NCBI RefSeq assembly: GCF_009932475.1
Contig: NZ_BJOV01000003.1
Span: 124,001 to 188,000 of the forward strand
Direction: 5' to 3'
Source of the DNA: Gordonia spumicola
GTDB taxonomy: Bacteria > Actinomycetota > Actinomycetes > Mycobacteriales > Mycobacteriaceae
Length of the DNA: 64,000 nucleotides
The translations under genes were made by a program, and so were the position numbers. This document shows, piece by piece, positions 32,051 to 38,129 of the stretch (position 1 is the first letter of the stretch; the number at the start of each line of letters is the position of its first letter). The notes beneath the pieces were generated by a model. That model worked only from the letters and a program-made list of their open reading frames with translations, was not told where the DNA came from and searched no databases.

Positions 32051-32123
32051 CGGCGCCCGCCACTACCCTGTAGAAGACCGGCGCCGCAGGCGGGCGACGG
32101 ACAGGGGCGAGAGGTGTGTGCGA

Positions 32124-33170
32124 ATGGCTGACAGCAGGGTCGGTTCCGGCCCGTCGACGCTGATCCCGTCGGTGGAACTCGATCGGTCCAACCGGGCCGA
32201 ACTGGAGACCGAGGCCGCCCGAGCCCGGACCGCGGGCGACGAGCGTCGACTGTCGGAACTGCGCGCGATCACCGACGCGATCATCGGCGACGACGTGTTC
32301 GTCCTCGAGTTCGACGCGCGCGACAAACAGGCGCACGTGGTGATCGCGCTCGGCGATCCCGACACCGCCGACCGCATCGCCGTGACCGTCCCGGGGATGG
32401 GCAGCACCACGGAACGGTCGGTCGGCGGCATGGTCAACGAGGCCGGGCTCCTCCGCAACGAGGCCCACCGCCAGCTGGCTCTCATCGACGGCGACGACGC
32501 GCCGAAGGTCGCGGCCATCGCATGGATCGGCTATCAGACGCCTGGCAATCCGTTCCTCGGTTTCGACCGCAGAGATCCGCACAGCTGGATGCCGTTCGTC
32601 CGGTCCGGACTTCAGGTGATGAGCCGACACCGCGCCCGACGCGGCGCTCCCCGGCTGGCGGCCTTCCTGACCCGGATCAAGCGACGCACACCGGACACCC
32701 AGCTCGTCCTGCTCGGCCACTCATACGGTTCACTCTGCTCGTCGTACGCCCTGCAACGACTCCGCGGGCGGCCGGCCCTCGACGGCAGGCCGATAGTCGA
32801 CCGCGCCGCGTTCTACGGCTCGCCCGGACTGGCGATCCGCGACGTCGAACAGCTCGGACTCGCGCCCGGCAGCGTCTACTACCTCAGCGCACCGAACGAT
32901 CCGGTGTCGAACCGGATCGCGAACTGGGCGCCGTGGCGCGGCTGGGGCGCGCGGCCGTCCAAGGTCGGCATGACCCGCCTGAGCACGGAGGCGGGCGTCG
33001 ACCGGACCGGCGTGCAGCGCGTCCGCGTGGAAGGGCACGCCGACTACGGCCGCAGCGAGGACAACGGCGCGAAACGGAACGTTGTACGGATGTCCGGCTA
33101 CAACATCGCGGCCGTCGTCGCGGGCATCGAGGCGAACGAGATCCTCATCGGACCGCGGTCGTACCGGTAG
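32124..33170 (+). CDS. DUF1023-type alpha/beta hydrolase
   Basis: A 348-residue protein. It has an alpha-helical N-terminal part and the DUF1023 hydrolase domain, with VTVPGMGSTT (about residues 87-96), the nucleophile Ser200 in LLGHSYGS and a late histidine in EGHADYGRSEDN. The family is abundant in mycolic-acid actinobacteria and its substrates are mostly unknown. GAGAGG lies upstream of the ATG at 32124; a GTG two codons earlier is possible. No signal peptide is visible. Confidence 0.8.
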   Translation: MADSRVGSGPSTLIPSVELDRSNRAELETEAARARTAGDERRLSELRAITDAIIGDDVFVLEFDARDKQAHVVIALGDPDTADRIAVTVPGMGSTTERSVGGMVNEAGLLRNEAHRQLALIDGDDAPKVAAIAWIGYQTPGNPFLGFDRRDPHSWMPFVRSGLQVMSRHRARRGAPRLAAFLTRIKRRTPDTQLVLLGHSYGSLCSSYALQRLRGRPALDGRPIVDRAAFYGSPGLAIRDVEQLGLAPGSVYYLSAPNDPVSNRIANWAPWRGWGARPSKVGMTRLSTEAGVDRTGVQRVRVEGHADYGRSEDNGAKRNVVRMSGYNIAAVVAGIEANEILIGPRSYR

Positions 33171-35472: not shown

Positions 35473-35484
35473 GCGACCGCGCCC

Positions 35485-35546
35485 GGTCGTTGAGTTGAGC
35501 GAACGGGAACGGTACGCGCCAGCTGACGATCTCGACGACCGAAACG
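35485..35546. repeat. Imperfect inverted-repeat element GGTCGTTGAG...CTCGACGACC
   Basis: Terminal 10-bp arms at 35485-35494 and 35531-35540 match at nine positions when inverted. The internal sequence begins TTGAGCGAACGGGAACGG. It lies in the convergent gap between the lipoprotein gene and the AT-richer islet. It resembles the TTGAG...CGAAA dispersed repeats elsewhere in the window, though not as a close copy, and could also act as a terminator. Confidence 0.5.
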
Positions 35547-35553
35547 GATGAAG

Positions 35554-36087
35554 TTATCGAAGGCCCCGCGACACCGCATCAGAGTCTTCTGGAGCGAACG
35601 TCGTCCAGTCTCCGCTGAATTCGAGAACAATCCCGTCTGCCATAGGCCTTCGCACAATCTTGCCGCTCAAATCGTCACCACTACCAAGTCGTCCAGATAG
35701 ATCTCGAATGTACGTCAGCCACCCCGGCACGATGGATACGGGGTCGGCATCTCCGAAGTCAAGCGAGACTCCCGAAGCGTGCGCGAGCTGAACACCCGGC
35801 CTCAATGATGCAACAGTGGGATGTAGAGCGTTGACTGCCGCTTCGAACGACTCTTTAAGAACTTCGAACTCATACCCCGCCGCATTCTCGAAGTCCTGCC
35901 ACTGTTCCCAATTGACCGTGACCTCGTACCTGCCCGTCTCCTCATCTCCCAGGGTCGCCGAAACGACGATTTCAATGGCACCATAGCGCCCATTGCAGCC
36001 CACGGAATCCGGTCCCACTGAAGCTATGGTCATCTCGACCGGAAAACCCTCACGATGAGAATAGAGGTCCGCTTTGAAGCGATTCAT
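35554..36087 (-). CDS. Unknown protein in the barstar/porin islet
   Basis: A 177-residue soluble protein with no signal peptide or membrane segment. It is acidic and mixed alpha/beta (YEVTVNWEQWQDFENAAGYEFEVL near residues 53-76). No family was recognised. Its gene is less GC-rich than the surroundings, with codons that the flanking genes avoid. The 30 bp before its start resemble those before the barstar-like gene (shared TGGAATTT, GGAG and GTGAA words). It may be an immunity-type or conserved accessory protein, which is a guess from context. GGAGGGTGAA upstream supports the start. Confidence 0.55.
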   Translation of the reverse strand: MNRFKADLYSHREGFPVEMTIASVGPDSVGCNGRYGAIEIVVSATLGDEETGRYEVTVNWEQWQDFENAAGYEFEVLKESFEAAVNALHPTVASLRPGVQLAHASGVSLDFGDADPVSIVPGWLTYIRDLSGRLGSGDDLSGKIVRRPMADGIVLEFSGDWTTFAPEDSDAVSRGLR

Positions 36088-36322
36088 CCACCAAATTCAC
36101 CCTCCGGAAATTCCATCAGAAATTTCGGCCTGTACCGCCCGCATCAGAATCAACTCTGTGATAGTACGGTCCCGACCGCACTTCGGCCAACTCGCCGAAA
36201 ACGTCCCAACGTATTCAAATCCGAAGAACCCGCGTCATAGTCACCAATCCACGCCGTCGCGAAATTGCTCCGAGACTTTCACCAGGAGGAACGCTTGGGG
36301 CGCATCGGGATCGTGAGAACAG
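36088..36322. other. 235-bp gap with degenerate coding traces
   Basis: No complete gene was found here. The minus strand is open from the barstar region through 36241 in another frame, ending in VKVSEQFRDGVDW before a stop. The segment at 36085-36130 resembles the end of the small membrane-protein gene and the barstar start region (TGGAATTT, GGAG, GTGAA words in order). These look like leftovers of a duplicated or rearranged gene. Confidence 0.35.
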
Positions 36323-36850
36323 CTACCGATCCAGTTTGGAGAAGCGGAGCCCCACACTTGCCCACCGAGCAAGATCGCTCGCCGCGTCATCATCGTCAAA
36401 CTGAAGGTAGATGTTAACACTCCTGGACACAGGCTCGAAGCCCGCCCGAATCCCCTCCGGTGAGCGAATCTCCGAAATGGCCGAACACAATATATCGATA
36501 AAGACTTCCAGATCGACACGGCCCTGCAATCCGCTTCCGTCTCTCAGTACTTCATCCGCATGCCAGATGATCAGGTCAAGACCAGAGGTCGCAGCCTGGT
36601 ACCGAAGATCTTCGTCGAAAAAATCCTGAAGGCAGTCTAGCAGCGCATCGCGATTGTATCCGAAGTACGAAGGAAACTGAAACGCTGCCGCAAACTCATC
36701 GAATAGATCGCCGAACGTCAAGCACTTCCATCCACGAACGTGCACGGGGTAGCGGCCAGATTTCCGCGACGCATACTCAACGCCAGACGTATCGTAGAGG
36801 CTATCGACAAGGATCGAGAAGTTCGACCCATCCAAGGGCGCTTCAGCCAT
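36323..36850 (-). CDS. Barstar-like (barnase-inhibitor family) protein
   Basis: A 175-residue protein whose centre shows the barstar family pattern: GWKCLTFGDLFDEFAAAFQFPSYFGYNRDALLDCLQDF (about residues 40-77), with the YFG-N-x-DAL-x-DCL core. A beta strand LDLIIWHADE and a closing strand VNIYLQFDDDD follow. Barstar-fold proteins inhibit barnase-type RNases and often serve as immunity proteins. No barnase-like or polymorphic toxin gene was recognised next to it, so it is an orphan here. Its ATG overlaps the stop of the small membrane protein by eight bases. Confidence 0.72.
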   Translation of the reverse strand: MAEAPLDGSNFSILVDSLYDTSGVEYASRKSGRYPVHVRGWKCLTFGDLFDEFAAAFQFPSYFGYNRDALLDCLQDFFDEDLRYQAATSGLDLIIWHADEVLRDGSGLQGRVDLEVFIDILCSAISEIRSPEGIRAGFEPVSRSVNIYLQFDDDDAASDLARWASVGLRFSKLDR

Positions 36851-37109
36851 TTACTTCACTCTCCAAAAATTCCAGTAGTGATTTGGCGTGTACCAAACAC
36901 TGCCGGGCACCCCACGACCCCAGATTCGACACCGTCATCGCAGCAGCGACAAGAACCCCGCACCCGAGCAGGAACAAGACGATCGAGCCCACCGGCACCG
37001 ACCCGGCCTCACCGCGCGTCGCCTCCCGGTCGTCGCCAGCCGGGGAATCGGCATGATCTATCGTCCGCGAATCGTCAGCAATACGTGTTGTGTTGTCTGT
37101 CAACGTCAT
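36843..37109 (-). CDS. Small single-pass membrane protein
   Basis: An 88-residue protein. It has a hydrophilic acidic N-terminal half (about residues 1-38), one transmembrane helix (about 40-61, VGSIVLFLLGCGVLVAAAMTV) and a short C-terminal tail with a cysteine (ARQCLVHAKSLLEFLESEVNG). GAAGGGAT upstream supports the ATG. It lies 33 bp after the MspA-like gene and overlaps the barstar-like start, so the three form one transcription unit. No family was recognised. Confidence 0.6.
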   Translation of the reverse strand: MTLTDNTTRIADDSRTIDHADSPAGDDREATRGEAGSVPVGSIVLFLLGCGVLVAAAMTVSNLGSWGARQCLVHAKSLLEFLESEVNG

Positions 37110-37142
37110 ATTGGATCCCTTCTCGTGACGGTAGGCAGGCTG

Positions 37143-37781
37143 CTACAGCAGGTGCGGGGACCCGTAGATGGTGAACGTGTTGTCATTGGCCGCCGTTGCC
37201 ATCGAGACGCGAATGTAGGCGCGCACCGCGGGGCGTGCGCCGACACACCCGGAGATCTCGACTCGAACACCCTCCGCGCGCGTTCCCGCACGCGCACCAG
37301 TCAGGGCTTTCTGGCCGAACTTGACATCGACCGTGGCCCCGTTCGCCAACGTCGTCGACACTGTCGGCATCGCCTGCACCCCGAACACCACCGCCGGCGG
37401 CCACGTGATCGACGCCTGCGCCGTCGGACCACCAGAAATTCCCACGTTCACCGATGACATCTGCCACTGACACGACAACTGATATCCCGAGGTCAGGACC
37501 GCAGCGTCCACTGGTACAGCACCATGTCCAGTGATCTCGGCTTCGCCCCGCAAGTCCAGGAACGCTTCGAACGAACCGACCCCGCGCGAGAGCGGCGGCA
37601 CCGACACGATCTTCTCCGCCGACTTCGTCAACCGGACCGTCCACCCATCATCAGAACGCTTCACCACGGTCCGATCGGGGAACCGATGAACCTGATCAGC
37701 CGACGCCACACCACCACCAGCAACGCCCACCAGCGCAACCGACGCCGCCACCACCGCGACCACCCGAACTATCAACCGCAC
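37143..37781 (-). CDS. MspA-family porin-like protein
   Basis: A 212-residue exported protein with a GTG start preceded by GGGAG. A signal peptide ends at about residue 28 (GGGVASA-DQVH). The mature part follows the MspA family: DGWTVRLTKSAEKIVSVPPLSRG near the N-terminus, SGYQLSCQWQ, GPTAQASITWPP, and the end block VEISGCVGARPAVRAYIRVSMAT...TIYGSP. MspA proteins form octameric channels through the mycolic-acid outer membrane. Compared with mycobacterial MspA, the two extra cysteines (about residues 104 and 180) are a feature of a distinct subgroup. Whether it forms a channel is inferred from family. Confidence 0.8.
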   Translation of the reverse strand: MRLIVRVVAVVAASVALVGVAGGGVASADQVHRFPDRTVVKRSDDGWTVRLTKSAEKIVSVPPLSRGVGSFEAFLDLRGEAEITGHGAVPVDAAVLTSGYQLSCQWQMSSVNVGISGGPTAQASITWPPAVVFGVQAMPTVSTTLANGATVDVKFGQKALTGARAGTRAEGVRVEISGCVGARPAVRAYIRVSMATAANDNTFTIYGSPHLL

Positions 37782-38129
37782 AACACAACTCCCGAACGCT
37801 CACGGCCAGCCACACGAACACTCGACATACGGTCGCATGTTCTGATCTATTGACTTCAACTTACCTTGGTGATTCAGCGACGGTAGCAGGCGTCCACGAC
37901 CCTGGCAACCGTCAGGCGAACGCGACACGAAAACGCTTCCACCCTGCCCGGAAATGTCGAACAATATGTTATGCAGAACTGCTGACGAAGCCCCGCTCGG
38001 CTCCAATCGAAGAACATCAGAGCTGCAGATATGACTCACTCGCCCCCGGAATGATCTTCAGGAGCGAGCGAGTTTCTTATGACCGCTCAGTGAGCGGTGG
38101 ACCGCCGAAGGTGCGGCGACAAACCGACG
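37782..38129. other. 348-bp gap, AT-richer, with hairpins
   Basis: No convincing gene is seen. It holds an imperfect hairpin with arms ACTCACTCG (38034-38042) and CGAGCGAGT (38065-38073), followed on the plus strand by TTCTT. A perfect palindrome ACCGCTCA-G-TGAGCGGT lies at 38082-38098, next to the end of the hydrolase gene. These probably terminate the minus-strand transcript. The left part should contain the promoter of the porin operon, but no clear hexamers were found. Confidence 0.5.
38082..38098. terminator. Palindrome ACCGCTCAGTGAGCGGT, candidate terminator
   Basis: Eight-base perfect arms around one G lie 32 bp after the stop of the 3-hydroxyisobutyryl-CoA hydrolase gene. There is no U-run on the minus strand, so termination is uncertain. 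Confidence 0.4.

Follow-up and report, generated by a model that had tools for sequence, protein, structure and literature searches.

The window analysed here, a stretch of 64,000 nucleotides from Gordonia spumicola (contig NZ_BJOV01000003.1, positions 124,001 to 188,000), contains a gene islet (35473..38129, no strand assigned) that we interpret, with a probability of about 0.85, as the decayed, inserted copy of a polymorphic-toxin locus linked to a porin of the MspA family. Fuller loci of this type comprise, in this order, mspA, a gene for a protein with two transmembrane (TM) segments, a gene for a long secreted-type protein with an exchangeable tip (the carrier), and one or more immunity-type genes. 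The islet holds four open reading frames (ORFs) on the minus strand, namely mspA (37143..37781), an 88-aa single-TM ORF (37109-36843), a barstar-like gene (36323..36850), and a gene for a 177-aa protein (35554..36087), all of them at the positions given by a preceding interpretation made from the letters alone (the sequence-only reading). No toxin gene was found in the islet. The islet is counted as a remnant because the window contains no carrier and only a 17-codon scar of a carrier tip. The proposal of the sequence-only reading that these genes might be left over from a polymorphic-toxin locus is supported by paralogous fuller loci, by a break in the homology to them at position 36905, and by a barnase-family scar in front of the barstar gene.

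The islet is an insertion, and in 26 of 29 other Gordonia loci its site is closed. The gap that it occupies measures 2657 bp and lies between a prfC-lipoprotein gene pair on one side and a convergent enoyl-CoA hydratase gene on the other, the ends of the insert being approximate. A search for the hydratase in 35 other Gordonia genomes yielded loci from 29 of them, and in 26 of these loci no more than 1.5 kb separates prfC from the 3' end of the hydratase gene, which identifies the islet as inserted; where a lipoprotein match was present (23 loci), the lipoprotein and hydratase matches end only 16-245 bp apart. Three loci (L088, L089, L091) have no prfC in the 1.5 kb examined from the hydratase end. 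An alpha/beta hydrolase of the Abhydrolase_8 family is encoded at 32118-33170, upstream of prfC, near the islet and outside it. The base use of the islet differs from that of its surroundings, as the sequence-only reading had claimed: the G+C contents of mspA, the TM ORF, the barstar gene, and the 177-aa gene are 0.649, 0.592, 0.545, and 0.560, respectively, compared with a mean of 0.685 (standard deviation 0.019) for the 55 other window genes predicted by a simple codon-based caller. Codon adaptation, whose calculation that reading had recommended, is likewise far from normal, with values of 0.471, 0.321, 0.299, and 0.310 in the same order against a mean of 0.724 (standard deviation 0.063), and each of the four ORFs is exceeded by all 55 other genes. 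The description of the four genes as mostly coupled holds for the TM ORF and the barstar gene, which overlap by 8 bases, but not for the porin and TM genes, which are 33 bp apart, or for the barstar and 177-aa genes with their gap of 235 bp.

The history of the islet can be read from two further copies of the porin and TM genes in the same genome, L042 (C3:779 kb) and L043 (C3:848 kb), which share 88 and 90% DNA identity, respectively, with the window over about 1.1-1.2 kb. The porins match in pieces of 96-97% (L043) and 82-98% (L042) identity. At both loci the porin gene is followed by a gene for a 107-aa two-TM protein and by a long secreted-type ORF (806 and 476 aa), the shorter of which may itself be broken, and their genes deviate in codon adaptation (0.27-0.43) like those of the islet. 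The homology includes the promoter-side region upstream of mspA (37782..38072, minus strand), where blastn matches extend to 38072 for L042 and to 37976 for L043. At its other end, the homology to L042 and L043 breaks at one identical base, 36905, which lies within the TM gene at about codon 69. What remains of this conserved gene are its first approximately 69 codons (36905..37109, minus strand); the second TM segment is lost, and residues 1-69 are 87-88% identical to the L043 and L042 proteins. The 88-aa ORF, for which all Pfam matches were below the cut-off and no NCBIfam match exceeded it, is therefore a chimaera and not a natural gene.

Its tail stems from a different sequence. The base directly following the end of the TM homology is the first of a scar (36851..36904, minus strand) that resembles, in its 17 residues and including the HY motif, the end of a protein of the barnase/RNase-Sa type, and that comprises the last 17 codons and the stop codon. 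This stop codon abuts the barstar ATG, and the scar is out of frame with the TM gene, the TM-frame reading of the scar yielding the tail of the chimaera. The assignment is based on tblastx pieces from ten RNase-bearing loci, which occur within matches that also cover the barstar gene, and on a score test in which the scar alone, compared with six Gordonia RNase C-termini, reached 55, whereas the maximum was 44 for 3000 random 60-mers of the window and 36 for 3000 shuffled sequences. Because the TM homology ends at 36905 and is followed directly by the RNase tail and then by barstar, these sequences point to the deletion of a carrier with an RNase tip as the most likely event. Such a deletion would have removed the rest of the TM gene together with the carrier and would have left behind barstar as the orphaned immunity gene of the RNase tip. 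A role as surviving immunity gene of this kind is in line with Zhang et al. (2012; PMC3482391), according to whom barstar immunity goes specifically with barnase-like toxins.

The barstar-like protein belongs to the barstar family, with a PF01337 match of 47.5 bits (cut-off 23.4) that covers profile positions 4-48 of 96, that is, the N-terminal half, and with a weak match to the barstar structure 1A19 in the PDB (E 0.066). It was matched in 57 of 101 relatives. A second orphan immunity-type gene is probably represented by the 177-aa gene on the minus strand, which has no match in Pfam or NCBIfam. Its product shares 28% identity over 163 aa (E 2e-12) with the C-terminal half of a 363-aa protein that in G. 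desulfuricans (L072) follows an Ntox17-like tip, and it is probably the immunity protein of another, Ntox17-like cassette. In front of this gene lies a degenerate second copy of the RNase-tail/immunity-start sequence (36083..36136, minus strand), recognized by a 54-bp local alignment to the first tail with a score of 49 (shuffle maximum 29, 0 of 500). Between the two immunity-type genes, on the plus strand (36166..36232), the scar of a transposase gene 3' end was detected. In L042 and L055 the genes for 437-aa transposases end in sequences that are 76% identical to it, over 68 and 66 bp, respectively; we take this insertion sequence (IS), which also adjoins other loci of the same type, to be ISL3-like. 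Closely similar transposases of 436-437 aa adjoin L042, L047, L052, and L055, which are located in different genomes.

The islet cannot deliver a toxin, because the carrier and the second TM segment are lost, and it is possible that its surviving immunity genes constitute a defense against an RNase toxin that enters by way of the envelope; both of them may still protect against the toxins of kin. Under an extension of this idea, which is compatible with the decayed-locus interpretation and to which we give somewhat less than even odds, the islet has been kept as an acquired-immunity island whose orphan genes are under selection by the toxins of related strains. Consistent with this, both ORFs are intact and preceded by GGAG-type sequences while the toxin is gone, and in other systems orphan immunity genes are reported to protect against foreign effectors. 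However, such selection is putative, a lag before decay would also explain the intact ORFs, and in L061 of another Gordonia (genome G013) a relative of only the C-terminal half of barstar exists, in whose surroundings neither the N-terminal half nor a toxin was seen.

The sequence-only reading had found it odd that barstar should occur without a barnase-like toxin. This holds for the islet, which contains only the RNase scar, but not for the genome, which elsewhere (C3:649245) encodes a barnase-like RNase with a barstar gene of its own next to it. A conserved barstar gene lies directly behind its own RNase gene, next to a gene that we presume to be xthA-like, in six Gordonia loci viewed; a seventh (L007) differs. 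Barstar-like genes standing alone among housekeeping genes, which would have spoken against a toxin-related origin, are thus not represented by this conserved barstar, which in the six loci adjoins its own RNase and not an islet-type context. The six loci would also fit a different origin of the scar, in which RNase tail and barstar derive from a stand-alone secreted RNase-barstar pair that was captured beside the porin-TM fragment, so that an RNase-bearing carrier never existed. This would agree with the failure to find an MspA-linked carrier with an RNase tip: a search with PF00545 in 48 genomes gave 49 matches in 42 of them, and none (0/49) has a listed TM match 20 kb or less away. Yet the scar begins at the very base after the TM homology, where the fuller loci have the carrier tip and the immunity gene, and the window barstar is only a diverged relative of the other barstar of the genome (48% over 62 aa), not a recent copy. 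We thus regard a captured pair as unlikely.

If the islet is a decayed toxin locus, the composition of the fuller loci is informative. The order stated above, mspA, two-TM protein, carrier, and immunity-type gene(s), is observed directly, and displaced cassettes and an IS sometimes follow. Matches to the carrier N-terminus number 40 and are distributed over 20 of 59 Gordonia genomes, and relatives of the window porin are encoded on the same strand 9-869 bp upstream of 34 of the 40, among the matches listed. Likewise, among the matches listed, 29 of 37 Gordonia TM proteins have an MspA gene at most 1.5 kb upstream. The TM protein is conserved (13 sequences). When named genomes were scanned, 22 loci were obtained, which belong without exception to Gordonia or Williamsia. 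In a sample of 401 genomes from the family, the TM profile, with ten candidates scored per genome, matched 63, which represent 13 of 31 genera (E 1e-3, weak matches included). Across the order the carrier profile matched 3 of 397 genomes, again with 10 candidates scored per genome, an insensitive search that sets no limit on the distribution. Twenty loci outside Gordonia were selected from the TM-profile matches, two of which overlap Williamsia loci of the named-genome scan; 18 contain MspA and 8 a carrier recognizable by profile, and in several others the TM gene is succeeded by small genes and a gene for a large secreted-type protein. On three Rhodococcus plasmids (L145, L146, L147) MspA, two small proteins, the second of which matches the TM family, and a long protein are encoded in this order. 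Two TM genes in succession occur in L124, L128, and L129 (genera G394 and G303), and L124 also has two carriers.

The window porin is a clear member of its family, with a PF09203 match of 106.6 bits (cut-off 22.9). When used as a single sequence in phmmer it missed the MspA structure in the PDB, and a 14-row profile was needed: built from 14 toxin-linked MspAs, it matches the solved MspA 1UUN at E 4.5e-10. The mspA genes of L042 (9293-9926) and L043 (12759-13395) share a frameshift near codon 148, which may reflect phase variation, a shared pseudogene, or an assembly error, whereas the window copy is intact and may stand in for these two porins. Split mspA copies were also seen in the genomes G028, G029, G004, and G154.

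MspA porins are general diffusion channels, known for nutrient uptake and nanopore sequencing and not for toxin work. The genes for MspA and the TM protein might consequently serve ordinary uptake and simply be passengers of the toxin cassettes. MspA matches were obtained in each of the 59 Gordonia genomes searched, with a maximum of at least 16 per genome, and among the matches listed the majority lie outside these loci. We nevertheless consider this improbable, given the position of the window porin's relatives just upstream of most carrier matches and the recurrence of the same order in other genera and on the three Rhodococcus plasmids.

The carriers have the architecture of polymorphic toxins, a conserved N-terminus and a variable C-terminal tip. 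They start with a signal-peptide-like segment, a conserved Cys and a Trp-Pro-Cys block, and a subsequent Pro/Gly-rich stretch (16 ORFs from 15 of the first 20 loci). The N-regions match each other in 236 of 276 pairs formed by the 24 proteins with this motif, a figure that is biased, as similarity guided the choice of loci and N-regions and as seven motif-less proteins, among them a Streptomyces comparator, were left out, whereas the tips, defined as the last 150 residues, match in only 17 of 465 pairs of 31 long proteins. Several tips are related to known toxin domains. A tuberculosis necrotizing toxin (TNT) domain (69.9 bits, cut-off 27) forms the C-terminus of the long protein on one Rhodococcus plasmid, the G. 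desulfuricans tip is Ntox17-like (E 1.2e-4, 22.7 bits, just under the cut-off of 25), an HNH domain exceeds its cut-off in a displaced cassette of L053, and one tip has a weak PD-(D/E)XK match below the cut-off. The L062 tip and the small neighboring gene, in which DUF6188 is over cut-off, are found again in Streptomyces, where they form the C-terminus of a polymorphic toxin-type HINT protein and the gene next to it. L054 and L137, which belong to different genera, share a tip (64% over 137 aa). A small gene overlaps the carrier end or starts at most 10 bp behind it in L062, L069, L072, L077, and L078. The tips of L051, L067, L068, L070, L071, and L130 look rich in glycine zippers, and several are followed by small hydrophobic proteins; these could possibly be membrane-targeting tips with membrane immunity proteins. 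Judging from such domain similarities, the long proteins are probably toxins.

Ten of the 31 long proteins have in common a further hydrophobic segment of one type, mostly near residue 190-220 and with arginines following. It has the form PLPVW-x-IAGAAAVAAA plus arginines in L042, L053, L054, L059, L062, and L067-L071 and resembles a sorting-type stop-transfer signal, except that it is internal. This suggests an inner-membrane stage with the N-terminal part outside, and the positive-inside rule would allow the tip to remain initially on the inner side. For the intact system we tentatively propose, with less confidence than for the origin of the islet, that the carrier would cross the inner membrane by its signal peptide, that the two-TM protein and the MspA porin would serve its passage across, or its display at, the mycolate outer membrane, and that the tip would poison a neighboring cell while the immunity protein protects kin. 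A more specific version, doubtful to a similar degree, is a dedicated porin route analogous to two-partner secretion, in which an MspA octamer, the two-TM inner-membrane protein, and the carrier with its signal peptide and internal stop-transfer-like segment would form an envelope-spanning path for exchangeable toxins on their way to neighboring cells, the islet then being a decayed orphan-immunity island with a porin usable in trans.

Several observations weigh against these interpretations. With 17 codons the RNase scar is short, and the tblastx pieces assigned to it depend in part on the adjoining barstar match, while the missing RNase-tipped carrier mentioned above leaves the proposed ancestor without a living example among the 49 PF00545 matches. 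Among the matches listed, 6 of 40 carriers and 8 of 37 Gordonia TM proteins lack an upstream MspA, and outside Gordonia the order varies, with MspA being divergent in L125, downstream in L136, and absent in L124 and L142. For the majority of tips and immunity-type proteins no family was matched, and in PDB searches the L042 and L054 tips gave no match, the L078 tip pentatricopeptide-repeat artefacts, and the L062 tip weak matches. AlphaFold2 modeled barstar alone with a predicted local distance difference test score (pLDDT) of 34, and the AlphaFold model of the 177-aa protein with one relative reached a similarly low pLDDT of 36. Finally, a role of the porin in toxin carriage, the toxicity of the tips, and the expression of the orphan genes are putative. 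An origin as prophage or phage-borne cargo, for which the toxin cassettes of Mycobacterium abscessus prophages might serve as a precedent (PMC8092301), is scarcely credible, as those cassettes are WXG-100 type VII substrates; a prophage origin was rejected after 50,697 phage records, searched at E 0.01, had yielded no match to the window MspA or to the L043 TM protein.

The locus type shares features with several known systems. Type VII WXG/LXG toxins are, according to PMC8092301, also actinobacterial polymorphic toxins with immunity genes, but the carriers described here have a signal-peptide-like N-terminus, and no WXG100 or LXG domain was matched in 10 of them. Barnase-barstar pairs are similar in having a barstar-family gene directly behind a barnase-family C-terminus; in the islet, however, the RNase consists of the last 17 codons only, and these are joined to the TM gene of a porin-containing locus. 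Another system with a similar layout is two-partner contact-dependent inhibition (CDI; CdiB-CdiA-CdiI), in which an outer-membrane barrel gene likewise lies beside a large toxin with a variable tip and an immunity gene, and in which orphan tip/immunity modules occur. MspA is not an Omp85/TpsB barrel, though, an additional two-TM protein is present, and a TPS domain was not found in the 10 carriers, so that the TpsB/Omp85 plus TPS combination typical of CDI is lacking. CpnT of mycobacteria unites channel and TNT toxin in one protein. The TNT tip of the carrier-like protein on the Rhodococcus plasmid and the envelope-channel context are reminiscent of CpnT, but here the channel would be encoded by a separate MspA gene, and the tips vary.

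How proteins cross the outer membrane of mycolic-acid bacteria has been debated for a long time, and the recurrent linkage of a porin gene with a polymorphic toxin offers a compact, genetically testable candidate for such a route. The locus type is also a source of antibacterial toxin/immunity pairs and, if interpreted correctly, would explain part of the MspA paralog numbers in some Gordonia genomes. No description of MspA-linked polymorphic toxins was found in the open-access literature, a search in which most subscription papers were not covered. The locus type resembles the polymorphic toxin systems as characterized in PMC3482391, with a conserved N-terminal trafficking part, exchangeable tips, putative downstream immunity genes, and displaced cassettes. 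In the trafficking table of that article, as far as accessible, a porin-like partner is named only for the type V secretion system (FhaB/CdiB). The trafficking part found here, composed of a signal peptide, a Cys-Trp-Pro-Cys segment, a Pro/Gly-rich stretch, and an internal hydrophobic segment, matches no Pfam family over the cut-off in 10 carriers (a SHOCT match of 28.4 bits occurs in the L124 carrier, which is outside this set) and differs by its association with a two-TM protein and an MspA porin. We class these loci as polymorphic toxins whose putative trafficking partner, the MspA porin, has no precedent in the literature covered, and they point to a hitherto unreported means by which mycolic-acid bacteria may fight each other.

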